The notes beneath the pieces are model-generated. The model ran no database searches. It saw only the letters and a list, made by a program, of their open reading frames with translations, and was not told where the DNA came from. A stretch of DNA of 64,000 nucleotides from the NCBI GenBank assembly GCA_016211085.1, contig JACQSY010000020.1, forward strand, positions 1 through 64,000. The letters run 5' to 3'. The translations under genes and the position numbers were made by a program. This document shows, in pieces, positions 35,534 through 61,908 of this stretch. The first letter of the stretch is position 1. Every line of letters starts with the position of its first letter. This stretch comes from Acidobacteriota bacterium. GTDB taxonomy: Bacteria > Acidobacteriota > UBA6911 > RPQK01 > JACQSY01.

Positions 35534-35601
35534 TAACAAAGGTTCTAAAAGAATCCGGAGACTTATTCGATTCTCAGTCTACATTGGGGAGGAGCACAAT
35601 C

Positions 35602-37506
35602 ATGAGAGTTAAACCCTGGTTCGGCTGTGCGCTAGTGAGCTTGAGCATGTCTTCCTGGTTATCGGCTCAGGCCGCATCCTCGGTTCCGGAAGAGCTGATT
35701 AAATATCCGGAATTGATTGTCTACAACGCTAAGATCGTCACGATGGATGACCGGCTGGTGAACGAAAACCCAGGCACTGTCGTAGAGGCCATGGCGGTTC
35801 GCGAGGGTAAGATTTTTGCGCTCGGCGATTCTCAGTCGATTCTTCGCTACGCGGGGCCGCAGACCCAAAAGCTGGACCTAAAACAGCGCACGGTAATCCC
35901 CGGGATCATCAACAGCCATGTTCACATTCACAATGACGCTCTGAGCAAGTGGTTCGATGCCAACCCGCAGCGAACCCGCGATGCAGTGGGAATCTTTCAA
36001 GTTCAGGGGTCCACCTCAGAGGAGCTAGTGCGCCAGGTTGAAAGAGTTCTCAAGGAGAGGGTCTCCAATCTTGAACCGAAAAAATGGGCGTTTTTAAATT
36101 TGCCGACGGAACGCGGAGGCACCGGCAGAGGCATTGGAACGAGAACACTGCAAGATCGCAAGATCATTGCAAAGCAGCTTGATGAATGGGCTCCCAATCA
36201 TCCGGTCATGGTCATTGCCCACCCCAGCTACATCTTGAATAATCAGGCCCGACGAGTACTGGAAGAAATTTACGGGATCGCTCCCAGCATGGATGAGGTT
36301 CCCGAGGACGGGTTTTCTGGAATGGGTGCAGAGTATCGAAGATCGGTGATCGTTGATGGCTATTTCAATGACCATTTGGATGTCCTCGCGGAAGAGATCA
36401 TTTTGGAAGGTCTGAAGGATGCTGCAGCGCGGGGAATCACCACTTTTTCGTCCCACATCATGGGGATCAACAATTTTAATGCCTATATTCGATTGATTCG
36501 GAAATACGGTCGCTTGCCGATCCGGTTTGGTTATTCCAACTATGCCGGTTTCCAACCCAACCCCAGCTATGCTCCAGGGTTTTATCTGAGATTAGGCGAT
36601 CAGGCCGGTTTTGGTCACGAATATTTTTGGATGACGGGGGTGGGTGTTAGCAACCTGGATGGCGGTCCACCCATGTTTTGTTCCTCGGTGGCTCTTCAGG
36701 CTGATGAAAAGAAACGAGAGTGGTGCAGGATCGAACCGGGTTCCGATTTCTACAAGGCGGTTTATCAATTGATCCTGGATGGCCAACGGGTCAATGTGGG
36801 CCACAATTATGGCGACAAGTCGCTGGATATTTTTATGGATATGCTCGAAAAAGCCATGGCTGAAAAGCCAAGCTTCACGCTGGAGTACATCCGATCACGT
36901 CAATTTACGGCGGATCATTGCGGACTCTATCCCAGACCCGATCAGCTCCCTCGCATCCAGAAGCTGGGGATTATGCTCAGCTGTGGAGCCAATTCCATGG
37001 ATCGCACATTTCCCAACCTGGGAATGTATGGGATGGAGAAGGCGGAATGGATCAGTCCCATCAACAATATTCTAAAAGCCGGCGTCCCCGTCTCCTTTGA
37101 AACAGAATCCTCTCTGGACAACGGCCTCTTCAACACCTTCTTGCCTTTTATCACGCGCAAGAGCACCACAGGCGGTTATGTGGTAGCCCCTGATCAGGCT
37201 GTGCCTCGAGTCATCGTGATGAAGATGGCTACCAGCTGGGGAGCAAAATTCCTCATGAAGGAAGATTCTTTGGGTGTGTTACAGAAAGGATACAATGCTG
37301 ATTTCCTTGTTTTGAACCAGGACTATTTCTCGGTTCCCCTCGAGGAATTGGGTAAGACCATTCCGCTGGCTACCGTGGTTGGCGGCGAAATAGTGTTCTT
37401 GAGAGAGTCGCTTGCCAAAGAGTTGGGCGTGCCTACGGTAGGCAAAGAAGTAATCTATGGTTTCGAAAGGAAAGATTCAACATCGGCTGGCAGAGCTATG
37501 GAATGA
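35602..37506 (+). CDS. Exported amidohydrolase (YtcJ-like)
   Basis: 634 residues with a signal peptide ending near LSAQA. The metal-dependent hydrolase fold shows the N-terminal beta part (VYNAKIVTMDDRL), the HVH metal motif in GIINSHVHIHND, further histidines (VNVGHNYGDKS; FTADHCGLYP) and the C-terminal NADFLVLNQDYF. The family cleaves amide or ester bonds or cyclic amides and imides; YtcJ members are near N-substituted formamide deformylase. GGGGAGGAG lies 9 bases before ATG 35602. It follows the TonB receptor by 68 bases and probably works in the periplasm on the imported compound. Confidence 0.88.
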   Translation: MRVKPWFGCALVSLSMSSWLSAQAASSVPEELIKYPELIVYNAKIVTMDDRLVNENPGTVVEAMAVREGKIFALGDSQSILRYAGPQTQKLDLKQRTVIPGIINSHVHIHNDALSKWFDANPQRTRDAVGIFQVQGSTSEELVRQVERVLKERVSNLEPKKWAFLNLPTERGGTGRGIGTRTLQDRKIIAKQLDEWAPNHPVMVIAHPSYILNNQARRVLEEIYGIAPSMDEVPEDGFSGMGAEYRRSVIVDGYFNDHLDVLAEEIILEGLKDAAARGITTFSSHIMGINNFNAYIRLIRKYGRLPIRFGYSNYAGFQPNPSYAPGFYLRLGDQAGFGHEYFWMTGVGVSNLDGGPPMFCSSVALQADEKKREWCRIEPGSDFYKAVYQLILDGQRVNVGHNYGDKSLDIFMDMLEKAMAEKPSFTLEYIRSRQFTADHCGLYPRPDQLPRIQKLGIMLSCGANSMDRTFPNLGMYGMEKAEWISPINNILKAGVPVSFETESSLDNGLFNTFLPFITRKSTTGGYVVAPDQAVPRVIVMKMATSWGAKFLMKEDSLGVLQKGYNADFLVLNQDYFSVPLEELGKTIPLATVVGGEIVFLRESLAKELGVPTVGKEVIYGFERKDSTSAGRAME

Positions 37507-37566: not shown

Positions 37567-38985
37567 ATGAAAGCAAAAATAAGCTTCATGGTCTTTTGTT
37601 GTTGCCTGTCGCTGTTGGTGCGGCCCCTCAGGGCGCAATGGATGCCGCCTGACGAACTCTCGAAAGAAAAAATTGTCGAAATTTCGGACAAGGTTCTGGC
37701 CATGCCCGATCTCGAAGTGAAAGCCAAAGAAGACATCTTCAGGATTCGGGTTCTGGAGATGGACTGGGATGTGGGTGGGATGGTTTACGAACCCGAGGAC
37801 GCTTCGAAAATTCCTTTGGGACCCGACGGGAAAAAAGTAGGTTTGTTCTTGATTCACGGCGGTTCAGGGGACCACCGCGGCAAGGACGCGGAAGCCCGGA
37901 TGCTGGTAGCGAAGTTTGGCTTCAAGGTCGTCACCATGACTTACCCTGGCCGTTTATACTTCGCTGATCCCAATCACGATTGGCCCGGAGATACTATCAA
38001 CCCGGATGGATCCGTTCGCACCCCCCTTTGGAAAAAAGACGAACAAATCACGCATGATCAATACCAGGTAACCGAAGATAAATCCCTAATCGAGAAGTAC
38101 GGGACTTTGATTTTGGCTTGTGCCCGAGAAGGCACGGTGTTTTTCGATCGCATGGCGGCCTGGCCGGTGGCTTTTGAAGAAACCGGTAAGGAGATCTTGC
38201 GCAGAAATCTTCCATCAGGCGAATACTCCATCTACATTCACGGGCACTCTACAGGAGGCCCTTTTTCGTTCATGCTGAGCCAACGGGTAGCCAACATTGT
38301 AGGAGTGTTAGGAATGGAAAGTTCTCCGTTCGGCTACATCACTCGGCGCACGCAACTCGAGCCGGGTTTGGGTGGCAGCCCGCCTGTGCCCAGCGGTAAA
38401 ACTCTCGGCGACGTGCCCTTTAACTGTCTGCAGATTAGGACCTGGCGCGACTCGGCCCGCTATGCGGGGCCTGAAGCCTTAATGATCGAAGGACCCGATG
38501 CGCTCATGCGCCTGCCGATGCTGATGGAAAAGGTTTTGGAAGGCTGGAAAAAACAAACCAGATCTCCACAGTTCAAGGCGGAGGGCATGGTTCATTTCGG
38601 AGCAGTGGACACGCTGGAAGCAGCAGCCAGAGCCGTGGCCAAAAGATTAAATCTCAATGCGGATCAAACAAGTGAGCTGATCAAGCTTTATATCGGTTAT
38701 TCGCGAGAGCTATCGGGAAAAGGAGTGAAGCGACATCCTCCAGTCATTTTTGGTATTGCTCAGGCAAGCGCGGATCATTCACCAGAACGCTACAAGAAAG
38801 TGACACTGCCCACTTATCGTGCGATGATTCCACCACCTAAAGTGAGTTTGGTGGAATTTAAGGCCGGAACCCACGGCTATGATCGCCCTGAACCGGGACT
38901 GAGCAAAGGAGTTTTTCCGGCCGTTGCCCACCTGTGGCACGAAGCCATTATGGCGGGATATTTCATTGAGCAACCTGAGAACTGA
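37567..38985 (+). CDS. Exported alpha/beta hydrolase
   Basis: 472 residues with a signal peptide (MKAKISFMVFCCCLSLLVRP, cut near LRAQ). The hydrolase signature is the nucleophile elbow GHSTGG (in IYIHGHSTGGPFS) with a preceding oxyanion loop LIHGGSGDHRG; a late conserved histidine appears in GTHGYDRP. It is larger than a minimal hydrolase, with inserts before the nucleophile. Substrate unknown; an esterase or amidase role fits its place between the amidohydrolase (60 bases) and the bicupin (24 bases). Confidence 0.8.
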   Translation: MKAKISFMVFCCCLSLLVRPLRAQWMPPDELSKEKIVEISDKVLAMPDLEVKAKEDIFRIRVLEMDWDVGGMVYEPEDASKIPLGPDGKKVGLFLIHGGSGDHRGKDAEARMLVAKFGFKVVTMTYPGRLYFADPNHDWPGDTINPDGSVRTPLWKKDEQITHDQYQVTEDKSLIEKYGTLILACAREGTVFFDRMAAWPVAFEETGKEILRRNLPSGEYSIYIHGHSTGGPFSFMLSQRVANIVGVLGMESSPFGYITRRTQLEPGLGGSPPVPSGKTLGDVPFNCLQIRTWRDSARYAGPEALMIEGPDALMRLPMLMEKVLEGWKKQTRSPQFKAEGMVHFGAVDTLEAAARAVAKRLNLNADQTSELIKLYIGYSRELSGKGVKRHPPVIFGIAQASADHSPERYKKVTLPTYRAMIPPPKVSLVEFKAGTHGYDRPEPGLSKGVFPAVAHLWHEAIMAGYFIEQPEN

Positions 38986-39009: not shown

Positions 39010-40224
39010 ATGGGTCACACTTGTCGGAAGAAGAGATTACCGACCAGCGTTAAGTTTATCGGTTTACTGGCGGTGGTATTGCCTCTGGCAGTAAGTAGCA
39101 AGGCGCACGATACTCCAAAAACTCTTAAGACCGAGAGCTTTTACGAGAACTGGATCCAGTCAGAAGGCATCCCCATATATCGGGGATTCCATATCGACGA
39201 CGTCAGGACCCTTCAGTTAAAGCCCTGGAAGCGCCTGGGAGCATCCGGAGCTTATCTTGTGCTGGACGGCATGGAAGGAACCGACGATGCCTTCCTTCTG
39301 GAAATAGCACCCAATAAGAAGACATTACCTGAAAGGCATCTGTTTGAGGAGGTAGTCTACGTTGTTTCTGGGACAGGGAGGATGGCCCTTTGGAAGGAAG
39401 GCCGTCCAAAGCAATTCAAGGATTTTCAAAAGGGAAGCCTTTTGTCTCCTCCCTTGAATTCCTGGCATGAGTTTTACAGCGTGGGCAACGAGCCCGTCCG
39501 GTTGTTTAGCGTGACCAGCGCTCCCGCCGTGTTGGATCTGTTTCACAACGAAGATTTTGTTTTTAACAACAATTTCGAATTCACTGACCGCTACAACGCG
39601 GAAAAGAGCTTCTTTGATACTTGGGAGTGGTTTCACTATGAAGGACTGGAAGGAGTCGATCCCCACGACCTGCAGGCCGTTTATACCAATTTTGTGCCCG
39701 ACGTGCGCAAGTTTGAGTTGAAGCTTTTTCCCCGTGGAAAAGACAACAGCTACGGCTTCCTGCAAATGGATGACAATGTTGTGGCGCCTCATGTGGCCCA
39801 GTGGGAAGTCGGGGTCTATAGTAAGGCGCACCGTCACGGCCCTGGTTCGGTCATCATAATCATTGACGGAAAGGGGTATTCCCTGGTGTGGACTGGGTCC
39901 ACTCATTACAGCAAGGGGAAACCCTTTAAGAAAGTGGACTGGCACGAAGGATCGGTTTTTGTTCCGCCACTCTGGTGGTTCCATCAGCACTTCAATACCA
40001 ACAACGGGCCAAGCCGTTACCTGGCAATCGGCTGGGTGGGACGGAAGTGGGGAATCAACGGCCTGGGAACGCATACGCACCAAAAGCCGGTGACGAGCCT
40101 GGACGAAGGCGGCAATCAAATCAATTACGAGAATGAGGATCCCGTTATACGAACCATGTACGAGGAAGAATTGAAGAAAGCGGGCGTGCAGATTAGAATG
40201 CCGGCCATCGTCTATCAAAAATAA
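39010..40224 (+). CDS. Exported bicupin protein
   Basis: 404 residues. The N-terminus is a signal-type stretch (KRLPTSVKFIGLLAVVLPLA, cut near SKA). Two cupin domains follow. The first (about 85-165) has only a partial metal motif (ERHLFEEVVYVVSGTG). The second (about 250-340) keeps the full HRHGPG ... G and a downstream histidine (WWFHQHFN), so it probably holds the metal. Bicupins include gentisate-type dioxygenases, quercetinases and oxalate decarboxylases. A ring-cleaving role is tempting given the context, but not shown. AGGAGG precedes the start. Confidence 0.78.
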   Translation: MGHTCRKKRLPTSVKFIGLLAVVLPLAVSSKAHDTPKTLKTESFYENWIQSEGIPIYRGFHIDDVRTLQLKPWKRLGASGAYLVLDGMEGTDDAFLLEIAPNKKTLPERHLFEEVVYVVSGTGRMALWKEGRPKQFKDFQKGSLLSPPLNSWHEFYSVGNEPVRLFSVTSAPAVLDLFHNEDFVFNNNFEFTDRYNAEKSFFDTWEWFHYEGLEGVDPHDLQAVYTNFVPDVRKFELKLFPRGKDNSYGFLQMDDNVVAPHVAQWEVGVYSKAHRHGPGSVIIIIDGKGYSLVWTGSTHYSKGKPFKKVDWHEGSVFVPPLWWFHQHFNTNNGPSRYLAIGWVGRKWGINGLGTHTHQKPVTSLDEGGNQINYENEDPVIRTMYEEELKKAGVQIRMPAIVYQK

Positions 40225-44314: not shown

Positions 44315-44830
44315 TCACTTTTCGGCTCCGCTTGGAATCGAGATTTGACCCGTCGAAGGATTCAACTTGTGACAGAGCAGACACTCGGCTTGAAAATTAA
44401 TGAGGTAGTGATTGTTTTCTCCTCCGTTTAAGTGGATGGCGTGCATCATGCTGGAAAAAGGAGGCGCGATTTTCGACTTTACGTTATGGCATAGTAGGCA
44501 ACTTTCGGGCACCTTCTCGAAGTTGACGCCGGCAGTGGGATGTTTGCCCACCAGTTTGATGCCCTTTGGCGCCGAGGCCTGTGCTTTGGCAAGAAGCGTG
44601 GGATTGATCTTCTCATTCCATTGCTTCATGAGCGTGCTTAACCGAGTGTCCATCTTTCTTTCCGGGTAGCTGATGTGGCAGTCGACACAGCCATACGGAA
44701 AAGGATCTTGAGCATTAATTCCTGGAATCTTTCTGATTGGGGGGTGGGGACTCTCCTTCTGCGCCTGAGCGGCGGAAGCAGGCGTAAACAAAGATAACGC
44801 GAGCAGGAGAAGCTGTAGCCTTTTGATCAT
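44315..44830 (-). CDS. Exported triheme c-type cytochrome
   Basis: 171 residues with a signal peptide (MIKRLQLLLLALSLFTPASA, cut near AQA). Three CxxCH haem sites lie at 48-52 (CVDCH), 111-115 (CLLCH) and 150-154 (CLLCH); several other histidines (such as MMHAIHLNGGENNHY) can be distal ligands. This spacing resembles small periplasmic c7/c3-type cytochromes. It would carry electrons in the periplasm. ATG 44830 is chosen for the signal peptide; the frame is open to 44950 but that part is not signal-like, and the ribosome site is weak. Last gene of the minus-strand train. Confidence 0.85.
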   Translation of the reverse strand: MIKRLQLLLLALSLFTPASAAQAQKESPHPPIRKIPGINAQDPFPYGCVDCHISYPERKMDTRLSTLMKQWNEKINPTLLAKAQASAPKGIKLVGKHPTAGVNFEKVPESCLLCHNVKSKIAPPFSSMMHAIHLNGGENNHYLINFQAECLLCHKLNPSTGQISIPSGAEK

Positions 44831-44956
44831 GTCTTTGACCGTGATGAAGTTGAACCAAGCCTCTTGCGTTGAACTAAGACTGTGGCGCTCTCTCAATTCC
44901 TTCAAGGTGGAGCAAACCGGTGTCGGGATAATTTGCAAATAAATCATCAAGCCTGG

Positions 44957-45511
44957 TTAGTGCATGTAGAAGAAGCATGCAACTTTAGGAAGGGGAGTAT
45001 CTTTCATGATCACGATCCTCCCTGGGATTGATTGAACCTCAAGTTTGCGGTTGAGTTGGTCGAAGACGGAAGCCTTGCTGGCGAGGGATATTTCCTGAAA
45101 ATCCTTCTCCAGCTTCGCCGCCTTTTCGATCTTTAGTCTTAGCTGAGCCAGAATCCCGTCCATTAGACTCGTTTGCTGTGCAGACTGCACCTTGATGATC
45201 AGGCGCGTTGCCTCCGGTTCCGAAGCAGTTTCTAACTCCGTCTTTAGCTCCGCGCCCGCATTCTTAGCCGAACGGCCGGGCTCTGCCGAATTGAAGGAGA
45301 TCCCTGCTGGTAGAATAACTTCGCTGTCCACAACGGTAACCGTGTGGCCCTTGGTTTCCAGCATCAATGAGATGATGAGCAGATCGCCTACTTGTCCAAC
45401 TGAATTACCCAGTTCGACGCGGACAGGGGACTGTGCGCGAACCGCCAAGATCAGTTGGCAAAACATGCTCAAACCCATCAGTGCGATCTTACAAACCCTG
45501 TTGCAAAGCAT
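44957..45511 (-). CDS. Exported cohesin-like domain protein
   Basis: 184 residues. A hydrophobic N-terminus (about 8-26, cut near VRAQ) precedes one domain of about 140 residues with alternating beta pattern typical of cohesin/carbohydrate-binding-like folds: VRVELGNSVGQVGDLLIISL, VDSEVILPAGISF, and RLIIKVQ. No CxxCH. In Acidobacteria-like genomes such domains occur in surface and cytochrome-linked proteins. It lies between an M29-like gene and the triheme cytochrome, so it may be a scaffold or partner of the cytochrome. The assignment to cohesin is by pattern only. Confidence 0.65.
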   Translation of the reverse strand: MLCNRVCKIALMGLSMFCQLILAVRAQSPVRVELGNSVGQVGDLLIISLMLETKGHTVTVVDSEVILPAGISFNSAEPGRSAKNAGAELKTELETASEPEATRLIIKVQSAQQTSLMDGILAQLRLKIEKAAKLEKDFQEISLASKASVFDQLNRKLEVQSIPGRIVIMKDTPLPKVACFFYMH

Positions 45512-45573: not shown

Positions 45574-47124
45574 TCAGTGATGCGGAGCAGGTTCAGGCAA
45601 TTGTTTATCCATCTGCTCGTTGAATTCCCAGTAGTAATCAACCCGTTCTCCGATCCGCATGGTGGGCCAGTCGTTCAGATACTCGTCCTTGATCATCTTT
45701 CGCCACTCTTCAGCGACGTCTAGAATCGCTTTTGGATCGCTCACATACCTGGCTGCTAATTTTCGTATTTCCGGATCATCAAGGGCCGTGAGGCGCCCGT
45801 TGTCGATAAGCTTTTTCCCATCGATCTCAATGGTGGGAAAATAAAGATGACCGCCGTTTAGTTTCAGGGGTGAAGCGCCCTGGGGTTGAACTCCGTGCAT
45901 CAATCCTTCCCCGCGATATACATCCCCCACACTGAAATGAACCACACCGGCCGTCCGCATATGATCTGACCACCCACCCGTCAATCCGTAGTTGCCTTTT
46001 TCCCGATACCAGTTGGAATTGAAGAAATCGGGTCCCACGATGGTGGGGGTGGTGCCGATAGCAAAGGTAAGCAACCACCGAGCTCCTTTGTTTCTCTTCT
46101 CTTCGCCAAATCCGACGCTGTATTCAACGCCGTCGTACTGACGAATCTTTTTCAGATAATCCTCTCCGACCCGTCCCCCACCTTCAATCCTCACCACCTC
46201 TCCTTGCTCGATGATATAGGTCATGCGGGCGGGTAACGGTCCCATATGAGCCGCATTGACTACAATCTTGCCCTTGGCATCCACCACCTTGCTGTATTCG
46301 AGACCCATGCCCAAATGGCTCCACTGGTAAGCGGCCCCTCCAAATATCCAGTGCTTCTCGAGGCCGATTCCCTGGGCTGCCATGGCGCTATCCGGATTCA
46401 TGTAAGGAAAATTCTTTTTCACCCAATCGAGGTCGACATCAAAGGTGAACGTCAAGTCGGTTCCGAGTGGATCTGTGAGGCGAACCCTGTGTGGTTTATC
46501 GAGGCCGATCATCTCCCAGACTTTGTTCTGGATGGCCAGGTCCAGTTCCACAGGAAATTGCGCATATTTGTCAAAGGCAAGCTGTTCCGGAACTGCCGGG
46601 AGAGCTACAGAAGCTATAACCCGCTTTCCTTGTTTGGTCCAATACATCCCGCGACCGTACGAAAGGTAAAGCATGTAATCTCCGAAAAGCACAACATCGG
46701 ATTGCCTGATCGCTTCCTCCACCCACAGAGGAACCCATGAATCAGGGACGTACTGCCTGCCATCCATCGGGTCCAGTGACGTACCTTTTCGGCGTGGGAT
46801 CGGCATAAGAGTGATTACATCCGCCAATCCCCCCATTCTGCGTATGGCAATCCTCATCGCGTCGAGCCAGACCGGGTCAAAGGCTTGATTGTCTATGGTG
46901 ACAAGGACCACTTTGTCTCCTTGTTTCAGGCCGCGGAGCTTGAGCTGAAATGTCGCATTTTCCACCAGTTTTTCCATGGAGGTTGGTGTGTAATTGCTAA
47001 TAGCCTTCGGTTTTTTTCTCATGGCCTCCAGTGCTTCCTCGTAAGTCTGCTGAGCCCACGAGGTCTGAGACAACAAGAGGATACCAATCAGATAAATCGC
47101 CTTTGGGAAGAATCTTCTAATCAT
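45574..47124 (-). CDS. Exported M29 aminopeptidase/NicX-like protein, copy A
   Basis: 516 residues with a signal peptide (cut near TSWAQQ). The body resembles M29 aminopeptidases and the related 2,5-dihydroxypyridine dioxygenase NicX: domain start GDKVVLVTIDNQAFDPVW, a central RLTDPLGTDLTFTFD, and EGGGRVGE. In the metal region H396 and Y403 (HFSVGDVY) keep the seven-residue spacing of the M29 His/Tyr pair, and H426 lies 30 residues on. Where M29 has HxD, this protein has H426-L-Y428, so a metal-binding Asp is replaced by Tyr. True peptidase activity is doubtful. M29 and NicX are cytoplasmic; export is unusual. It has a close tandem paralogue 33 bases upstream. Confidence 0.7.
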   Translation of the reverse strand: MIRRFFPKAIYLIGILLLSQTSWAQQTYEEALEAMRKKPKAISNYTPTSMEKLVENATFQLKLRGLKQGDKVVLVTIDNQAFDPVWLDAMRIAIRRMGGLADVITLMPIPRRKGTSLDPMDGRQYVPDSWVPLWVEEAIRQSDVVLFGDYMLYLSYGRGMYWTKQGKRVIASVALPAVPEQLAFDKYAQFPVELDLAIQNKVWEMIGLDKPHRVRLTDPLGTDLTFTFDVDLDWVKKNFPYMNPDSAMAAQGIGLEKHWIFGGAAYQWSHLGMGLEYSKVVDAKGKIVVNAAHMGPLPARMTYIIEQGEVVRIEGGGRVGEDYLKKIRQYDGVEYSVGFGEEKRNKGARWLLTFAIGTTPTIVGPDFFNSNWYREKGNYGLTGGWSDHMRTAGVVHFSVGDVYRGEGLMHGVQPQGASPLKLNGGHLYFPTIEIDGKKLIDNGRLTALDDPEIRKLAARYVSDPKAILDVAEEWRKMIKDEYLNDWPTMRIGERVDYYWEFNEQMDKQLPEPAPHH

Positions 47125-47157
47125 TGCATAACTCCTTTGGCTCTAGTGTCCTTAATC

Positions 47158-48717
47158 CTAATTCTTATTCGCGATCTTTGCCGCTTCCTTATCCATTTCT
47201 TCATTGAGTTCCCAGTAATAATCGACTCGACCTGGAGGGCGAATGGTTGGCCAGTCATTGAGATATTCCTCATGCACCAATTTTCGCCATTCTTCCGACA
47301 CATCCAGTAAATTCTTAGGGTCCCCATACTTGGCCGCCAGAGTTCGGATCTCCGGGTCGTCCAAAACCGTCAATCTGCCATTGTCGATGAGCTTTTTCCC
47401 GTCCACTACTACAGTGGGGAAGTAGAGGTGTCCCCCGTTAAGCTTCACCGGCTTGACGCCTTTTGGTTGTACACCGAGCATGAGACCTTCGCCGCGGTAA
47501 ACGTCACCAATGCTGAAATGTAGAACGCCAGCGGCCCTCATGTGATCCGACCATCCGCCCCCCAGGGTGTATGAACCTTGTTGTTTGAACCAGGTGGGGT
47601 CAAAAAAATCTGGAGCAACAATCGTGGGAGTGACACCGATGGCAAAGGCCTCCAGCCACCTCGCTCCTTTGTTACGCTTATCCTCTCCGAAGCCCACGGG
47701 GTACTTGACTTCATCATATTGCCCGATGATCTTCATGTAATGCTCGCCCACCCGGCCTCCGCCTTCGATGGAAACTACCTGGCCTTTGTCTATGACGTAG
47801 GTCATTCGCACGGGCAGCGGCCCCATGTGGGCGGCATTAACCACGATTTTGCCTTTTGCGTCCACGACCTTGCTATACTCCAGGCCGATGCCGAGGTGGC
47901 TCCACTGATATCCAACTCCACCAAAGAGCCAGTGCCGGGAGAGTTGCGACCCTTGGGCGGTGGAAGCATCCGCTGGATCCAGGTGCGGGAAATTCTTTCT
48001 CACCCAGTCGGGATCAAGATCGTACGTAAAGGTGAGGTCTGTCCCCAGCGGGTCGGTGATCCGAATGTTCTTTGCCTTTTTGTCGTTCGGCCCGAGCACT
48101 TCCCATACCTTTCTCTGGATGGCGAAATCTAATTCGGGCGGAAACTTTGCGTAGTTATCTAGCGCCAGTTGCTCCGCAATTACCGGCATGCCTGAGGGCA
48201 CGACAATTACCTTTTTCCCCTGTTTTGTCCAATATAGGCCCCGGCCATAGGAAAGATAGATCAAGTAATCACGAAACATCACGACGTCGGATTGCTTGAT
48301 TGCATCCTCAACCCAGCGCGGGACCCAGGAATCAGGAACCTCTTGTCTCCCTTCCTGGGGGTCCAGGGATGTCCCTTTCCGACGGGGAATGGGCATAAGC
48401 GTGATGGAATCAGCTATACCCCCCATCCGTCGGATGGCAACTTTAATGGCTTCCAGCCAAACAGGATCGAAAGCCTCATGATCATGAGTTACCAGGACCA
48501 CCTTGTCTCCTTCTTTTACGCCTCGTGTTTTCAACTGGAAAATTGCATTTGAGATCAGTGGTTCCATAGAGGTTGGTTTGTACTGATCAGGTGCCTGAGG
48601 TTTGGAACGCATTACTTCCAGCCCAATTTCATAAGCGCTTTGCGAATGCAAGGCTGACCGGCTACAGATAACCATACCGACAGTAAGAAATAAGATATGC
48701 ACAGTCTTTGTCTTCAT
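47158..48717 (-). CDS. Exported M29 aminopeptidase/NicX-like protein, copy B
   Basis: 519 residues, clearly a duplicate of copy A: long identical stretches include SLGTDLTF-like DPLGTDLTFTYD, GKIVVNAAHMGPLP, EGGGRVGEHYMK and VDGKKLIDNGRLT. A signal peptide precedes (MKTKTVHILFLTVGMVICSR, cut near LHSQ). The same HLY in place of HxD is present (LNGGHLYFP), and the HFSIGDVY motif keeps His and Tyr, so the change predates the duplication. It follows the TonB receptor by 29 bases. The two copies might form a heteromer or act on different isomers. Confidence 0.7.
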   Translation of the reverse strand: MKTKTVHILFLTVGMVICSRSALHSQSAYEIGLEVMRSKPQAPDQYKPTSMEPLISNAIFQLKTRGVKEGDKVVLVTHDHEAFDPVWLEAIKVAIRRMGGIADSITLMPIPRRKGTSLDPQEGRQEVPDSWVPRWVEDAIKQSDVVMFRDYLIYLSYGRGLYWTKQGKKVIVVPSGMPVIAEQLALDNYAKFPPELDFAIQRKVWEVLGPNDKKAKNIRITDPLGTDLTFTYDLDPDWVRKNFPHLDPADASTAQGSQLSRHWLFGGVGYQWSHLGIGLEYSKVVDAKGKIVVNAAHMGPLPVRMTYVIDKGQVVSIEGGGRVGEHYMKIIGQYDEVKYPVGFGEDKRNKGARWLEAFAIGVTPTIVAPDFFDPTWFKQQGSYTLGGGWSDHMRAAGVLHFSIGDVYRGEGLMLGVQPKGVKPVKLNGGHLYFPTVVVDGKKLIDNGRLTVLDDPEIRTLAAKYGDPKNLLDVSEEWRKLVHEEYLNDWPTIRPPGRVDYYWELNEEMDKEAAKIANKN

Positions 48718-48746: not shown

Positions 48747-51700
48747 CTAGAACGTGATCTTTAAGCCAAATTGGACCTGCCGCGAGGTACTGACGGTTCT
48801 CAAGATTTTCCCGGCTGTTGGCACGGGTCTTCCGCTTGGATCGGCGAAAACAATGGGGCCTCCGCGCGCGTCCCCTCCATCATCACCGGGAGTAGCGAAA
48901 TTGGAACGATTCAGCAGGTTAAAGATCTCAGCCCGAAATTGCACGTTAACTCTTTCGCTAACATACGTGTTTTTTACAACTGAAAAATCCACATTGGCGA
49001 AGCCAGGACCAATAACAATGTTCCTGCCTGCATTGCCCAGAAATCCTGCCTCAGGAAGCTTAAACGCGGAAAGATCAAAATAACGGTCGGGGTTTTGAGA
49101 AAAGGTAGCCACCTTTTGCAGCAAATCGGGGCGTTCGGAAGGATCGCGCACCCCTGTGCTGGACCGATTAAAGCCCAAGCGAGGTGTGAATGGCACTCCT
49201 GAAGAAAAACCAATAATGGTCCCCAACTGCCAACCGCTTATGATCTTTCCGGCTAACCCGCTCACATTTTCTCCCCATGCTTTACCAGGCCCAAAAGGCA
49301 GCTCGAAGATCGAGTTGATCACAGCGTTATGGCGGACATCGAAGTTCGACAATCCCCGGTTTCCTTTGCGATCCAACAGGTCGGGCAGGTCATCGTGGGA
49401 GTTTCCGGAGGGAACAGATCCGAATGTGACACCATTATCGATGGATTTCGAAATCGTGTATGAGAATTGGAAGTGTAAACCTTGACTCGCCCGCCGACTC
49501 AGACTTCCTTGAAAGGAATTAAAATTTGAATTTCCGATCGGGGTTTTGAAAGCAATTTCACCAAAAGCAGGATTTCTTCGAGCTGCGCCATTTGGGAAAA
49601 ACTTTTTTCCATCCTGAATGGTTGATATTGGCTGGTTGATGTCCCCCTGAATAATCTGGTGCACGCCCCGCAGACCGGCGTAAGCCAACGTGACGGTGGT
49701 ACCCGGGGTAAGTTCGCGCTGGATGCTTAGGTTGTACTGCATCGCATAGGGATAGTTAAAGTCGCGGTCAAGAAGCGATAGAGGCACGATGGGAATTCTG
49801 ACCCTGCCCGCTGCCGCATTGGGGAAAGGGGCTCCGGGTATCAGCACTACTGACGAAAAAGGCGGCGTGTTGCGTCCTTCGCCAAAGCTATGTATGTAGA
49901 GGCGATCGAAAAAGATTCCAAAGCCGCCGCGTATTGCCATCTTCCTGTCGCCGAACGGATCCCAGGCAAATCCGAATCTGGGTCCGAAATTTGAGTAGGA
50001 GGGATTCTCTTCAAAAAGCGAATCGACTTGTGTGAAGCCGGCGGACTTGAGCGGATCGAGGAGAACGGACATCTTACCGTTAACTTCCGAAAGGTTGCTG
50101 TAGGGTTCATACCTCAATCCGAAATTAAGCGTCAGAGTGGGCCTGATTCTAAAGTCGTCCTGAAAATAAAAGCCCCAGGAACTCAACCGATAACCCCGGG
50201 CTGAATCGGCACCCGGCAGCGTCCCCGTAAAGGTGGCGGATCGGCCTCTTAGAAAATCGGCGATACCTATAATCCGATAACTGCCGTTGAAGAAGAGATC
50301 GATAAAGGAGTTTTCATGAACACGTTCGAAATCGAAACCCACCTTCATAGAGTGTCGAGCCAGGTTGTATGTGACGTTATCCTGCAATTGAAACAGGTTC
50401 AGAATTCCTCCCACAGGACGGCTTAAACGATGTCCAAGGTTGCTGAGTCCCAGCACTGTGATGGGACCCATCTGTCGGTTAGGCATCAAGGAAGTTGCGA
50501 GTTCAGGAGGGACATTCGGAATCTGAGCAATTCGGTTGTTGCGGTTGAAATTGAAACGGAACGTATTTAGTAACGTAGGCGCGAACACATGACTTTCCTC
50601 AATGGTCAGGTACTGCGCTCGACCGTCAGCAAAGGACTCAAAGCCCGGTACCGGTGTGGAACCAAAGGGGTCAATCATGGAACTCTCTTTGAAGGTATAA
50701 CGTACGTAAGTCGAGTCCTCTTCGGAAAATACCTGATCGAACCTGATATTGAAAAGGTCCTCGTCAATAGGCCGTGGCCTGTGGCCGCGCCACTCGGCAG
50801 AACCACCTCCAAAATCAGTACCGGTAGGCGAAGGATATAGATCCAAGAAAGGCTTGACGGCCGGCAGTACTCCAACGTTGACCAGAGTACCGGTTGCGGG
50901 ATCCTTCACCAAGCCTTGTCGTGCGCTGAAGCTGGGTACAATTGCAACCGAAGACATCCCTAAACGCTCCCGGAATCCTTCGAAGCCCCCCAGGAGGAAA
51001 GCTTTCTCCTTCACCAGAGGGCCACCAAGCGTGAACCCGTACTGGTTTCGTTTGAATTCCGGTTTGGTCAAATCAAAGAAATTGCGTGCGTCCAGGTTGT
51101 CATTCCGGTGAAAATAGAACGCGGTGCCTTGCAGTCGATTGGTGCCGCCCTTTGAAACAACGCTGACTACCCCGCCGGTAGTTCTGCCGTATTCGGCACT
51201 GAACGCATTGGTGAGAACGCGAAATTCGCGAATCATGTCAACGCCAATAGCAACTCCGGAAGCGCCCCCAGGCGGAGTTGCGTAAAGTGGATCGGTCAGA
51301 TCGGAGCCATCCAGAAGATACAAGCCCGATATGGGTTGCGCCCCCCCTACCCCAATGGCGCCGCCGCCTCCCATTCCTCCAAAGGCAATCTGGCGAGAGG
51401 TTCGAATTCCTACGACTCCGGTTTGCAATTGAGCTAGTTGCAAAAAACTTCTGCCATTCAGAGGAAGATCGACGACCTGCTGTTCCACAACAACTGCGCT
51501 AATGTCGGAATGAGTGGTCTCTACGACAGGAACCTCTTCCGTGACCACGACCTTCTCATCGATCTCGCCAATCTTGAGACTGAAATCCACAATCGCTTCC
51601 TGCCCCACATTCAGGGAAACATCACCTCGAATGGCGGTCTGGAAGCCCTGGAGACTAGCTTGCAGCTCGTAAGTACCAGGAGCCAGGTTGGGCGCGGCAT

Positions 51701-51893
51701 AACGGCCGTGGTCGTCGGAAATAAATGTCTTAGTCGCGCCCGTTTCGGTGTTCCTAACAACCAGCGTAGCTCCTGGAAGAACCGCCCCGCTGTCGTCTTT
51801 AACGGTGCCTGAAATGGTGGCAGTGGTGAGCTGGGCCAGCACCACTAGAGGCACAAAAAGTAAAAAAAGGACAGAAACTAGAGACTTTGCCAT
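48747..51893 (-). CDS. TonB-dependent receptor, Oar-like, second copy
   Basis: 1048 residues. Signal peptide (MAKSLVSVLFLLFVPLVVLA), CarboxypepD_reg-like domain (TATISGTVKDDSGAVLPGATL), plug domain (VVDLPLNGRSFLQLAQLQTG) and a long barrel ending in TSRQVQFGLKITF with the terminal aromatic residue of outer-membrane proteins. It shares architecture and many barrel motifs with the receptor at 32354 (HRNDNLDARNFFD in both), so they are paralogues. ATG 51893 has a G-rich ribosome site; an alternative ATG five codons upstream exists. It is third in the MFS-UbiD-receptor-M29 train. Confidence 0.92.
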   Translation of the reverse strand: MAKSLVSVLFLLFVPLVVLAQLTTATISGTVKDDSGAVLPGATLVVRNTETGATKTFISDDHGRYAAPNLAPGTYELQASLQGFQTAIRGDVSLNVGQEAIVDFSLKIGEIDEKVVVTEEVPVVETTHSDISAVVVEQQVVDLPLNGRSFLQLAQLQTGVVGIRTSRQIAFGGMGGGGAIGVGGAQPISGLYLLDGSDLTDPLYATPPGGASGVAIGVDMIREFRVLTNAFSAEYGRTTGGVVSVVSKGGTNRLQGTAFYFHRNDNLDARNFFDLTKPEFKRNQYGFTLGGPLVKEKAFLLGGFEGFRERLGMSSVAIVPSFSARQGLVKDPATGTLVNVGVLPAVKPFLDLYPSPTGTDFGGGSAEWRGHRPRPIDEDLFNIRFDQVFSEEDSTYVRYTFKESSMIDPFGSTPVPGFESFADGRAQYLTIEESHVFAPTLLNTFRFNFNRNNRIAQIPNVPPELATSLMPNRQMGPITVLGLSNLGHRLSRPVGGILNLFQLQDNVTYNLARHSMKVGFDFERVHENSFIDLFFNGSYRIIGIADFLRGRSATFTGTLPGADSARGYRLSSWGFYFQDDFRIRPTLTLNFGLRYEPYSNLSEVNGKMSVLLDPLKSAGFTQVDSLFEENPSYSNFGPRFGFAWDPFGDRKMAIRGGFGIFFDRLYIHSFGEGRNTPPFSSVVLIPGAPFPNAAAGRVRIPIVPLSLLDRDFNYPYAMQYNLSIQRELTPGTTVTLAYAGLRGVHQIIQGDINQPISTIQDGKKFFPNGAARRNPAFGEIAFKTPIGNSNFNSFQGSLSRRASQGLHFQFSYTISKSIDNGVTFGSVPSGNSHDDLPDLLDRKGNRGLSNFDVRHNAVINSIFELPFGPGKAWGENVSGLAGKIISGWQLGTIIGFSSGVPFTPRLGFNRSSTGVRDPSERPDLLQKVATFSQNPDRYFDLSAFKLPEAGFLGNAGRNIVIGPGFANVDFSVVKNTYVSERVNVQFRAEIFNLLNRSNFATPGDDGGDARGGPIVFADPSGRPVPTAGKILRTVSTSRQVQFGLKITF

Positions 51894-51940
51894 GGCATAC
51901 CCCCCCAATGAGAGTGAATCAGTGTCGGCTCATACTATAA

Positions 51941-53425
51941 CTAATCTCCGAGAATATCCTTCCATTTCTCCAGAACGCGGCGCTTGATTTCCGGACTTGA
52001 CTCAACCACAGGCGGAAATTCGTTCCTCCACTCGTAAGGGCGACAGGCGTCAATAATTGCACGCGAGTTGAACCCTTTTCGTGCCTTGGGTATGACCGGG
52101 TCCAGGGGTCCACTCCAGCAGCGACGAAGGATCTCTATATCTTCAGCCGGATCACTTCGCGTTGACACGGCCCAGATCACTTCCTCGATATTCGAAGGAT
52201 CAATGTCCTCGTCGACCACGACGTAATACCGGCCCATGTAAGCCCCTCCCCGGCAGGCGATAGCGGCCAATCCTGCCTGCCGAGCGTGCCCGGGGTAGCG
52301 CTGGGTGATTGAGACGGCCGTGAACATGCTGGTAGGCGCCATGTGATGGATGTAAACTCCTTTGATATCCGGAATCCCGGCGGCTTCCATGGCTTCCCAC
52401 AAGGTCGCGGCCGAGATCAAGTCATAGAAGACAACCGAGGGCGGCCTCCCCATGGGAGTTCCTGTAATAATCGGTTCGTTGCGGTACATGAGAGACTCGA
52501 CTCGGACCACGGGAGCCGGCCTCTTGTCACTGGCATAGTATCCGGTGAATTCACCAAACGGACCTTCCTCTTGCATTTCCCCAGGGTGCACAAATCCTTC
52601 GATGGCAATCTCAGCTGAGGCTGGAATCGGCAAACCCGTTACCGGACCCTTGATGATGTCGATAGGTTCGCCTTTCACCCACCCTGCATAGTCGTATTCC
52701 GAGGTTCCCCAGGGCAGGTGAAATGAAGCAATGTAAATCAGCAGAGGATCCTGTCCAAAACAAATGGCCACCGGAAAAGGCTCATTTCGCGCAAAGCTCT
52801 TTTCCATCTGAATCCGTCCGTCTTTTCCCGGAGAAATATACAAACCCAGTCGATCTTTGCCGTGAATCATGACGCGGTAAGTGCCCAGGTTAATCCAGCC
52901 TTGCTCCGGATCCCGGGTTACGACGACACAGTCGGTCCCGATATATCGCCCACCGTCGCGTTCATTCCAGCGCGGTGTTGGAAATTTGAAAAGGTCGATG
53001 TCCCGTCCATTCAGGACGTTTTCCAAAACCGGCCCGCTTGAAACCAGACGAGGAGGGAGGGGTACGAACTGCTTCATTCGGTCTTTCCACACGCGAACAA
53101 ATTCGAGTCCCTTCATGCTGGGGGACATGCCGAGTGAAACGGCTACCAGCGGCATAGAATTGTCACAATTCGCAGCAACACGATAACCTGGAGGGTAGCC
53201 CCGAATCTGGTCGAAGAGGAGGATGGAGGAGTTCTCGAGCCTTCGACGCCGCTCAATCTCGGTAATCGCACCGATCTCCAGATCCCAGTCAGCACCATCC
53301 AATCGCTTCAGGAGCTGCAACCGTTGAGCAATCTCGAGCCATTCCCGTAGGTCCTTGTAGCGATAAACGCGACTCACGAGTCTGGGTCCTTCAGCTGTTT
53401 CGACTTTGGGTGCAATATTGTCCAT
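51941..53425 (-). CDS. UbiD-family prenylated-FMN (de)carboxylase, second copy
   Basis: 494 residues. Catalytic residues fit the family: R184 (LGTYR) and E287/E292 in EGPFGEFTGYY. prFMN-binding residues around PTPRWNERDGGRYIGT are also typical. It decarboxylates, or in reverse carboxylates, an aromatic or unsaturated acid with prenyl-FMN supplied by UbiX from elsewhere in the genome. AGGAG lies 9 bases upstream. It stands between an MFS carrier (50 bases) and a TonB receptor (47 bases), so import, decarboxylation and uptake genes are cotranscribed. Confidence 0.92.
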   Translation of the reverse strand: MDNIAPKVETAEGPRLVSRVYRYKDLREWLEIAQRLQLLKRLDGADWDLEIGAITEIERRRRLENSSILLFDQIRGYPPGYRVAANCDNSMPLVAVSLGMSPSMKGLEFVRVWKDRMKQFVPLPPRLVSSGPVLENVLNGRDIDLFKFPTPRWNERDGGRYIGTDCVVVTRDPEQGWINLGTYRVMIHGKDRLGLYISPGKDGRIQMEKSFARNEPFPVAICFGQDPLLIYIASFHLPWGTSEYDYAGWVKGEPIDIIKGPVTGLPIPASAEIAIEGFVHPGEMQEEGPFGEFTGYYASDKRPAPVVRVESLMYRNEPIITGTPMGRPPSVVFYDLISAATLWEAMEAAGIPDIKGVYIHHMAPTSMFTAVSITQRYPGHARQAGLAAIACRGGAYMGRYYVVVDEDIDPSNIEEVIWAVSTRSDPAEDIEILRRCWSGPLDPVIPKARKGFNSRAIIDACRPYEWRNEFPPVVESSPEIKRRVLEKWKDILGD

Positions 53426-53475: not shown

Positions 53476-54780
53476 CTAACGCTTCACGCCAACCGGAGAG
53501 ACCCTCCCGACTGCCACCTGTTGACTCACGGCCGGCTGGGGCTTCCCGACCAGTAGAAAGAACAAGGCGGCAAGCAGAGCAGAGATAATCATGGCTACAA
53601 AGGCTGCGTGGTAGCTGCCCGTCGCATCACGAATGTACCCCGCTGCAGCCGGTCCGAGCGAGCCTCCCAAAGATACAAATAGTAAAGAACTGCCCAGGAT
53701 CTTGCCCAGAGAGTGCAGTCCAAAATATTCCCGGGGGATTAAAGAACCGAGAACAAAGGCTGCACCATGGCTGAATCCCACCAGGGCGCAAAACACATAC
53801 ATTATGGAGGTCGAAAAGGGTACGGTGATCAGGACCAGCAAAGACAGCGCGCTGGAAACACAGCTGAAGACCATGATGTTTTTTCGAGAGACCTTGTCAC
53901 TCAAAAAACCGATGAGTAGCTTGGCCCATACACTGACAAAAAGCAGGAAGCTTAAAAATGCCGATGCGCTGGACAGACTCATGCCGACCTCGTCCCCTTT
54001 CAAAAAGAGAACCATGTGTTGAATGATGGACAAGGTAGTCATCTTGATAAACAAGATGCCGAAGCTGATCAGCCAAAAACTCCTCATACGCAGTGCATCA
54101 GAAAAAGGAATTCCGGTTCGCGGTTGGGTCTTCGTCTGGCTGCCGGCTCCTGCCCCGCTGCCGGTCACCTCAGTGCTGTCATCCATGGTCAGGCCGATCT
54201 CATGTGGAGTTTCACGTACGATTTTTGCAAAAAGAGGAAGAATAACAATCCCGCCAAACGCCCCGAGAACGACCAGAGCAACTCTCCAATCGTACCGGCT
54301 TACCAGTGCGCTTGTCACAAGTGGCCCCAGGACTGCTCCGACGCCCACACCACCAAAGACAATACCAACAGCAAAACCTTCTTTCTTCCTGAACCATTTC
54401 GATATCAAAACCTGGGTCGAGGTCGTACCCACTGCTCCGGCTGCCGAGCCCAAAACAGCGGCCGTTACATAAAAACCGATCAGGCTGTTCATGTAGGCAA
54501 GCACGACCAGGCTGATACCCGTGATCACCAGCCCCACCAGCTTGGTTCGCTTTGCCCCAAAACGGTCACAAAGGGCGCCCACCAAAGGGTTGATGGCCCC
54601 GAAGAAAAAAAGGCAAATGGAACCTATGCTCGCCACTGCAGTGTGACTCCAACCGAACGCGCTCACAAATGATGGATAAAGCACTGGTAATGTATAGAAG
54701 GTAATGCCGGTGCTGAAGGCTGCTGCGGATGCGCAGGTCAAGGTGACCCACCACCCATAAAAAAACTTGAAACGTTTCAT
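53476..54780 (-). CDS. MFS transporter, oxalate/formate-antiporter-like (OFA) family
   Basis: 434 residues with twelve hydrophobic segments and a central charged loop (about 200-225). The start FFYGWWVTLTCASAAAFSTG is typical of OFA/monocarboxylate-type MFS proteins, and the inter-helix motif GALCDRFGAKRTKL matches the MFS signature between helices 2 and 3. These carry small organic acids. ATG 54780 has GGAG 10 bases upstream. As first gene of the train with UbiD and the TonB receptor, it is the likely inner-membrane importer of the acid substrate. Confidence 0.88.
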   Translation of the reverse strand: MKRFKFFYGWWVTLTCASAAAFSTGITFYTLPVLYPSFVSAFGWSHTAVASIGSICLFFFGAINPLVGALCDRFGAKRTKLVGLVITGISLVVLAYMNSLIGFYVTAAVLGSAAGAVGTTSTQVLISKWFRKKEGFAVGIVFGGVGVGAVLGPLVTSALVSRYDWRVALVVLGAFGGIVILPLFAKIVRETPHEIGLTMDDSTEVTGSGAGAGSQTKTQPRTGIPFSDALRMRSFWLISFGILFIKMTTLSIIQHMVLFLKGDEVGMSLSSASAFLSFLLFVSVWAKLLIGFLSDKVSRKNIMVFSCVSSALSLLVLITVPFSTSIMYVFCALVGFSHGAAFVLGSLIPREYFGLHSLGKILGSSLLFVSLGGSLGPAAAGYIRDATGSYHAAFVAMIISALLAALFFLLVGKPQPAVSQQVAVGRVSPVGVKR

Positions 54781-54873
54781 GTTGAGTAGATCTCCACCCG
54801 TCGTTTTGCGAAATAAGAACATCCCGCGGCAACAAAATTCGACATGTTTCGGAGATAGGACACTAGCACAGCT

Positions 54874-61107: not shown

Positions 61108-61908
61108 TTATTTTTTTACAACTTTTCTCTTCCAGAGGTCCCATGCGCGTTTGTAATCGTCAAGATCGGTCGCCTTGCGAGCCTCCTCTGGATGCAGGTA
61201 GGTGATGGTGCCCCCAATGGTCATCGCCTGCGCCTGAAGCCGGGCGTTAATTTCCAGATACACGCTGCGTCCCACTACAACCGGAAGAGAAGACCCAACC
61301 ACGGCCGCGCCATGACCTCTCATCAAGACTGCGCCCTGATTTCCCAGGCTGCGTGCCAGGGCGGCGGCCAGTTCGGAGTTTCGGACCAGCATGTCGGTCA
61401 ATCCGCCAGCGTTGCGGATGTCAAAAACGGGCAAACCTTCACCGATAAAAGCCGCCATGTGATACAGCGCCTTGAGCGGCACGCTGCTTACGCCAAAGGG
61501 AATCACCGATGGCGAGTGGTTGTGCACAATCGCTTTTACATCCGGACGGACCTTGTAAATTTCGCTGTGAATAAAGCGTTCGCTGTACAGAGCGCGGGTT
61601 GTGGACTCGACCGGCGTGCTGTCGAGATCAAACTCGAGAATGTCATTGGCGGTCACCAGTTGGGGAGCCAGCGAACTGGCCAAGAAAAAGTGGCTGGGAT
61701 TGCGGTTGTGGCGGACGCTCACGTGGCCGTAGCCGTCTAAAACGCCCTCAGCGACCAGGATGTGATTCGCAGCCACGAGGTCGGCTATCAGTTCAGGATC
61801 CACCGAAGAAGGCTCTTGTTGAGCCGACAAAGATGCCACTGACATGGAAAACAAAACAGTACTGAGAAGGACGGCAAGGGTACCTCGACGGAATTGATTG
61901 CTTCGCAT
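61108..61908 (-). CDS. Exported class II aldolase/adducin-family protein
   Basis: 266 residues. The signal peptide (MRSNQFRRGTLAVLLSTVLF, cut near LSAQ) is followed by the class II aldolase domain. Metal histidines lie in VHNHSPSV and MRGHGAAVVG, and a catalytic-type glutamate in YSERFIHSEIYK. Cytoplasmic members include fuculose- and ribulose-phosphate aldolases and HMG/CHA-type aldolases acting on ring-cleavage products. A signal peptide on this family is unusual and points to periplasmic activity on a non-phosphorylated compound. The C-terminal tail is basic (KRAWDLWKRKVVKK). Confidence 0.88.
   Translation of the reverse strand: MRSNQFRRGTLAVLLSTVLFSMSVASLSAQQEPSSVDPELIADLVAANHILVAEGVLDGYGHVSVRHNRNPSHFFLASSLAPQLVTANDILEFDLDSTPVESTTRALYSERFIHSEIYKVRPDVKAIVHNHSPSVIPFGVSSVPLKALYHMAAFIGEGLPVFDIRNAGGLTDMLVRNSELAAALARSLGNQGAVLMRGHGAAVVGSSLPVVVGRSVYLEINARLQAQAMTIGGTITYLHPEEARKATDLDDYKRAWDLWKRKVVKK

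Follow-up and report, generated by a model that had tools for sequence, protein, structure and literature searches.

Gene organisation of the locus

The window analysed here is a 64,000-nucleotide stretch of an Acidobacteriota genome, and its minus strand carries two tandem genes, copy A (45574..47124; 516 aa; assigned from the ORF list, the site table and the pair alignment) and copy B (47158..48717; 519 aa; from the ORF list, the site table and the fold search). Both frames are intact and separated by a gap of about 34 bp, in agreement with the initial annotation, which had reported two exported tandem open reading frames at 45574-48717. The encoded proteins are 68% identical across 515 aligned residues (70% by sequence search). 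Their hydrophobic N-termini resemble Sec-type signal peptides, as judged by inspection and with a simple rule, and a periplasmic location is predicted for both.

The pair belongs to a run of seven same-strand genes spaced about 7 to 63 bp apart. The run begins with a transporter of the MFS family (53476..54822; Pfam MFS_1, 3.4e-50), followed by a UbiD-family decarboxylase (51941..53425; Pfam UbiD, 7e-67; TIGR00148 above cut-off) and, about 33 bp further on, by an Oar-type TonB-dependent receptor (48747..51908; Pfam OMP_b-brl_4, 1.1e-183, and CarboxypepD_reg, 2.5e-22). Copy B follows the receptor gene after about 30 bp, so the tandem duplication indeed lies beside a TonB receptor, as first noted. 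Downstream of copy A are a gene for an exported cohesin-like protein (44957..45511), assigned from gene order and having no significant Pfam match, and the last gene of the run, encoding a small exported multihaem c-type cytochrome (44315..44950) with CxxCH motifs, whose Cytochrome_C7 and MtrC-like matches are weak and under cut-off. An exported cohesin-like protein is encoded directly 3' of a member of the pair's family in two genomes, in the window (44957-45511) and at L049:7944-8516; the latter matches Cohesin at 1.8e-4, just below cut-off.

The remainder of the window contains many genes of aromatic and heterocycle catabolism, namely molybdenum hydroxylases, a second UbiD, a Rieske oxygenase alpha subunit, a VOC-type dioxygenase, an exported gentisate-type cupin and hydantoinase-type subunits, the last recognised by eye. 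Apparent signal peptides are present on four enzymes of catabolic type (39010-40224, 35584-37506, 37567-38985 and 61108-61908), comprising a gentisate/5-aminosalicylate-like cupin, an amidohydrolase, an alpha/beta hydrolase-like protein and a protein with a class II aldolase fold, which suggests that the aromatic pathway may be partly periplasmic. Genes for RiPP biosynthesis were not found in the window, whose genes are those of catabolism and transport.

Relationship to M29 peptidases and NicX

The M29 fold is known from aminopeptidases, from a single dioxygenase that cleaves rings and from a few proteins that bind peptides. The relatedness of the pair to M29 and NicX proposed in the initial annotation is upheld, although not by the alignment to the Pfam M29 model suggested there as a check: PF02073 has no genome-wide match at E<=0.001 and matches neither copy at E<=1. 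More generally, no Pfam or NCBIfam model detects the two copies or any scanned relative from the family to which they belong, and direct detection of M29 by Pfam, by NCBIfam and by phmmer and hmmsearch against the PDB, with either the pair or the family profile, returned nothing. NicX likewise gave no direct sequence match to the pair, to which it is connected through intermediates and through the fold. As direct searches were empty, homology was established via intermediates. The family HMM is matched by divergent PF02073-positive proteins; in a profile-profile comparison with hhalign, 115 family members aligned to this divergent M29 set with E=1.8e-22; and the profile of the divergent set in turn found NicX (1.1e-22) and PepS, AmpT and AmpS (2e-8 to 1e-5) in the PDB.

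Structure prediction led to the same proteins. The model of a canonical relative (pLDDT 90.7, pTM 0.89) retrieved M29 peptidases and NicX on top, as well as CgnE (6zsu). The model of copy B is of moderate confidence (pLDDT 70.3, pTM 0.77), and NicX, the best match, PepS, AmpT and AmpS were its only matches below 1e-3. The profile chain and the fold search together show that copies A and B have the M29/NicX fold. Locus L142:7366-8421 of a Gammaproteobacteria MAG, adjoining a family member, encodes a protein of 351 aa that stands between the family and NicX/M29 and has HxD and EWMIG motifs.

The metal site

M29 peptidases are two-metal aminopeptidases. They require E250, E316, H345, Y352, H378 and D380, and a single alanine change at E316, H378 or D380 abolishes activity (PMC7023490). 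In NicX, a 2,5-dihydroxypyridine 5,6-dioxygenase (PDB 7cn3, 7cnt and 7cup), the iron ligands are H265, S302, H318 and D320, and the H265A, H318A and D320A variants lose both activity and iron binding (PMC7910607). The family equivalents, numbered as in copy B, are strongly conserved among 115 members: H274 in 111, E/D357 in 108, H400 in 111, H426 in 109, H/D428 in 110 and H430 in 102. Where M29 has H-x-D, the family thus carries H-x-H-x-H, a basal group having H-x-D, and the position of M29 E250 is occupied by histidine throughout.

In the pair, the position of M29 H378-x-D380 reads L426-N427-G428 in copy B and L422-N423-G424 in copy A. This placement was obtained from an ungapped alignment to relatives, from the M29-bridging alignment and from an independent hhalign run, all without gaps in this region. 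The initial annotation had read the motif as H-L-Y, with the aspartate replaced by tyrosine. In the alignments HLY corresponds to H430-L431-Y432, its histidine being the third of H-x-H-x-H and lying four positions after the HxD histidine position (L426); its tyrosine is not at the aspartate position. The distance from H396 to this histidine, 30 residues in copy A against 33 in M29, resembles the M29 spacing only superficially. The position of M29 E316 is A357 in copy B and T353 in copy A, within the segments WLEAFAIG and WLLTFAIG, respectively; a glutamate occurs one residue earlier (E356) in copy B only. That the glutamate region was altered had been correctly noted, as had H396 and Y403 of copy A, which correspond to H400 and Y407 of copy B and keep the 7-residue spacing of the M29 motif. 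An alignment separating HLY from the HxD position was among the outcomes that the initial annotation had named as refuting its claim, and this outcome was obtained. The original finding is real in substance, with an altered metal site, but the residue named was wrong, and with HxD aligned to L-N-G the loss is larger than first described.

The conserved R-x-R preceding H400 (R393 and R395) is also lost. By alignment, R393 would correspond to NicX R293, which holds D320 in place (PMC7910607). In all, both copies have changes at E357, R393, R395, H426 and H428 and keep H274, H297, H400 and H430. Read against M29, copy B has H274, A357, H400, Y407, L426 and G428, so that of the catalytic set only H345 and Y352 are kept; most family members have no tyrosine at the position of Y407. 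Read against the Fe(II) ligands of NicX, the pair has A357/T353, S402/S398, L426/L422 and G428/G424 (copies B and A, respectively), which falls short of the NicX set; the serine, placed at the NicX Ser302 position by profile alignment, replaces a glycine found in 101 of the 115 family members. In the canonical model, E325, H359 and H380-H384 lie on strands that match those bearing A357, H400 and L426-H430 in the model of copy B.

The pair therefore shares with AmpS, AmpT and PepS (M29, PF02073) the fold, remote profile homology and the histidine and tyrosine of the EEHYHD motif, but differs at the E316, H378 and D380 positions and in being exported with N- and C-terminal extensions. With NicX it shares the fold, the serine and the neighbourhood of heterocycle and aromatic catabolism genes; unlike NicX, it has A/T, L and G at the positions of H265, H318 and D320 and consists of exported, longer proteins. 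Within its own family, extended by 37 further members, all five canonical residues (H274, E/D357, H400, H426 and H/D428) are present in 124 of 152 sequences, whereas the pair keeps only H274 and H400. No other single-length member covering position 426 lacks histidine there, and E357, H400, H426 and H/D428 are retained by almost all of them. Of the single-length proteins among the 152, only the pair lacks both H426 and H/D428.

The exported M29-like family

Copy B and the family profile were each used to search the window's genome, and 19 family members were identified. The pair is predicted to be exported, as the initial annotation had stated, but instead of forming a distinct clade it is part of a large family whose other members mostly have an intact site, and export does not set it apart, N-termini resembling signal peptides being common to nearly all members found in Acidobacteriota. 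In this genome (G000, 3.5 Mb), an intact paralogue is encoded, for example, at C126:4991-6427; the contigs with family members are C1, C4, C5, C19, C24, C28, C37, C38, C50, C51, C89, C108, C117, C122 and C126, and some copies (L037 and L039) have lipoprotein-like signal peptides. When copy B alone was used as the query for related loci in public genomes, no relative was found; the family alignment retrieved 126. By the signal-peptide rule, members are exported in Acidobacteriota and cytosolic-looking in Actinomycetota, Bacillota, Chloroflexota, Pseudomonadota and archaea. Within Acidobacteriota the distribution is patchy (a search with copy B found the family in 5 of 199 genomes), with high multiplication where the family is present, as in G131 with 34 matches. 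A member at L084 (CAMDXD010000127.1, titled Bordetella parapertussis, perhaps a mislabel) is almost identical to that of L089, from a Betaproteobacteria MAG. A literature search on the COG2309 branch and on TonB expansions in Acidobacteria found nothing specific.

The genome of the window encodes 28 full-length Oar-type receptors. For 9 of the 19 family genes such a receptor is found no more than 3 kb away, where about 8.5% would be expected (P ~1e-5 by a binomial calculation that counts neighbouring copies separately, as independent). Exported Amidohydro_3 enzymes are frequent in family loci. In the Bacillota loci L117, L118, L123 and L137, cytosolic members stand beside an NMT1/THI5-like binding protein, an ABC permease and an ATPase, mostly together with a LysR-type regulator. 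The proximity of Oar receptors, Amidohydro_3 enzymes and NMT1/THI5-type importers suggests that the substrates of the family may be of a small organic, perhaps heterocyclic, class.

A second, separate branch that has lost the site consists of double-length proteins of about 700-860 aa in several genomes of the class (L045:976-3324, L048:644-2941, L053:1601-3961, L162:5213-7786, L163:7602-10031, L164:3122-5221, L165:7926-10370, L166:8740-11124 and L167:6698-9103). Five of them, at L045, L048, L053, L162 and L164, adjoin an intact copy, and at L167 the gene order is Oar receptor, degenerate double-length copy and two amidohydrolases.

Descent and selection

A quick maximum-likelihood tree places the pair next to members from L041 and L043, which have an intact H-x-D, with a support of 100, and gives the pair a very long stem of 1.3 changes per column. 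As judged from these sequences, the pair is a member of the exported M29-like family by descent that has lost the site. The loss is common to both copies and so, most simply, would predate their duplication. Close relatives of the pair were found neither in 396 genomes of the phylum, where the nearest protein is 41% identical and has an intact HxD, nor in plasmids.

Between copies A and B, identity at third codon positions is 36%, meaning that synonymous sites are saturated and yield no dS value, and dN is 0.235. Such a combination indicates that the site-less proteins have been kept by purifying selection after the loss. Conservation between the copies is not notably higher in the old active-site region, 13% of windows of equal size being as conserved.

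Possible functions of the pair

The reading that we tentatively favour, at somewhat less than even confidence, is that copies A and B are periplasmic, non-catalytic proteins of the M29/NicX fold that bind or hand over the substrate of the Oar receptor in an operon for an aromatic or heterocyclic acid. The operon would serve the uptake and breakdown of such a compound: the TonB receptor would import the substrate, and the M29-fold protein would then handle it in the periplasm. Intact members of the family would be likely to carry out a metal-dependent conversion of the substrate. In the pair, the ancestral metal-catalysed chemistry is probably gone, which makes binding or hand-over the simplest role, for which CgnE offers a precedent. 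CgnE, one of a duplicated pair of proteins with the M29 fold, has a broken metal site and binds peptide while lacking peptidase activity (PMC10070186). CgnB and CgnE, of crocagin biosynthesis (CgnE, PDB 6zsu), resemble copies A and B in their M29 fold, in falling outside any Pfam family and in combining duplication with a degraded metal site. They differ in that only one of them has the broken site, together with a non-catalytic binding role (PMC10070186), while here both copies have lost the site, and in that the present proteins are larger, exported and encoded next to genes for a TonB receptor and for aromatic catabolism rather than in a RiPP cluster. The genomic context also has a parallel in the double-length branch, where a separate site-lost form again occurs in a receptor operon or beside an intact copy.

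The main rival to this reading is that the pair are re-tooled metalloenzymes with a His-only site formed by H274, H400, H430 and perhaps H297, together with S402 at the NicX Ser302 position, catalysing a different reaction such as the oxidative ring opening known from other 3-His iron dioxygenases. We regard this as possible but doubtful. Triads of three histidines hold Fe(II) in gentisate and cysteine dioxygenases (PMC7910607), positions 426, 428 and 430 of a strand point to one side, and copies A and B both retain the four histidines with their synonymous sites saturated, whereas the degenerate double-length proteins have lost nearly all of them. Yet half of the ten site-region positions examined are lost; they fare no better than the remaining positions conserved in the family, of which 22 of 64 differ in copy A, copy B or both, and no carboxylate remains at the M29 ligand positions. 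If the pair instead retained the reaction of the family with a reduced site, E356 of copy B and its neighbours would have to compensate; the preserved fold, H400 and Y407 and the glutamate one residue off the ligand position fit such a scheme, which is nevertheless improbable given that copy A has no glutamate there, that both copies lack the histidine and the second ligand of HxH/HxD, and that the stem to the pair is so long.

The tandem arrangement, with the two genes on the same strand about 34 bp apart, and the recurrence of tandem intact and degenerate copies elsewhere in the family (L045, L048, L053, L162 and L164) recall CgnB/CgnE and would fit a single functional heteromer to which A and B give different residues. 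The same residues are lost in both, however, so neither can give the other an intact site, and this arrangement too seems rather unlikely. Decay of the duplicates to proteins without function might account for the loss of residues that are otherwise near-invariant, but is very improbable: the frames are intact, the signal-peptide-like N-termini are kept in kind although only 12% identical, and the mature parts are about 70% identical at saturated synonymous sites and a low dN.

Implications for the family

The finding is of more interest at the level of the family than at that of the pair. With less confidence still, and as a rather speculative extension, exported M29-fold proteins may be periplasmic partners of Acidobacteriota Oar receptors that have so far escaped recognition, most of them metalloenzymes with an HxHxH site and the site-lost forms ligand carriers. 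Irrespective of this, the exported branch is an enzyme family amenable to assay: it carries H-x-H-x-H instead of H-x-D, is unnamed in Pfam and NCBIfam, numbers up to dozens of copies in a single genome and is often encoded next to outer-membrane receptors. The pair provides a natural site-lost control to set against an intact paralogue in distinguishing catalysis from binding beside a receptor. If the extension holds, the family would represent a class of partner proteins comparable in role to SusD with SusC and expanded to about 10-30 copies per genome, in which intact members would act on small aromatic or heterocyclic molecules and the pair would serve as dedicated ligand carriers.
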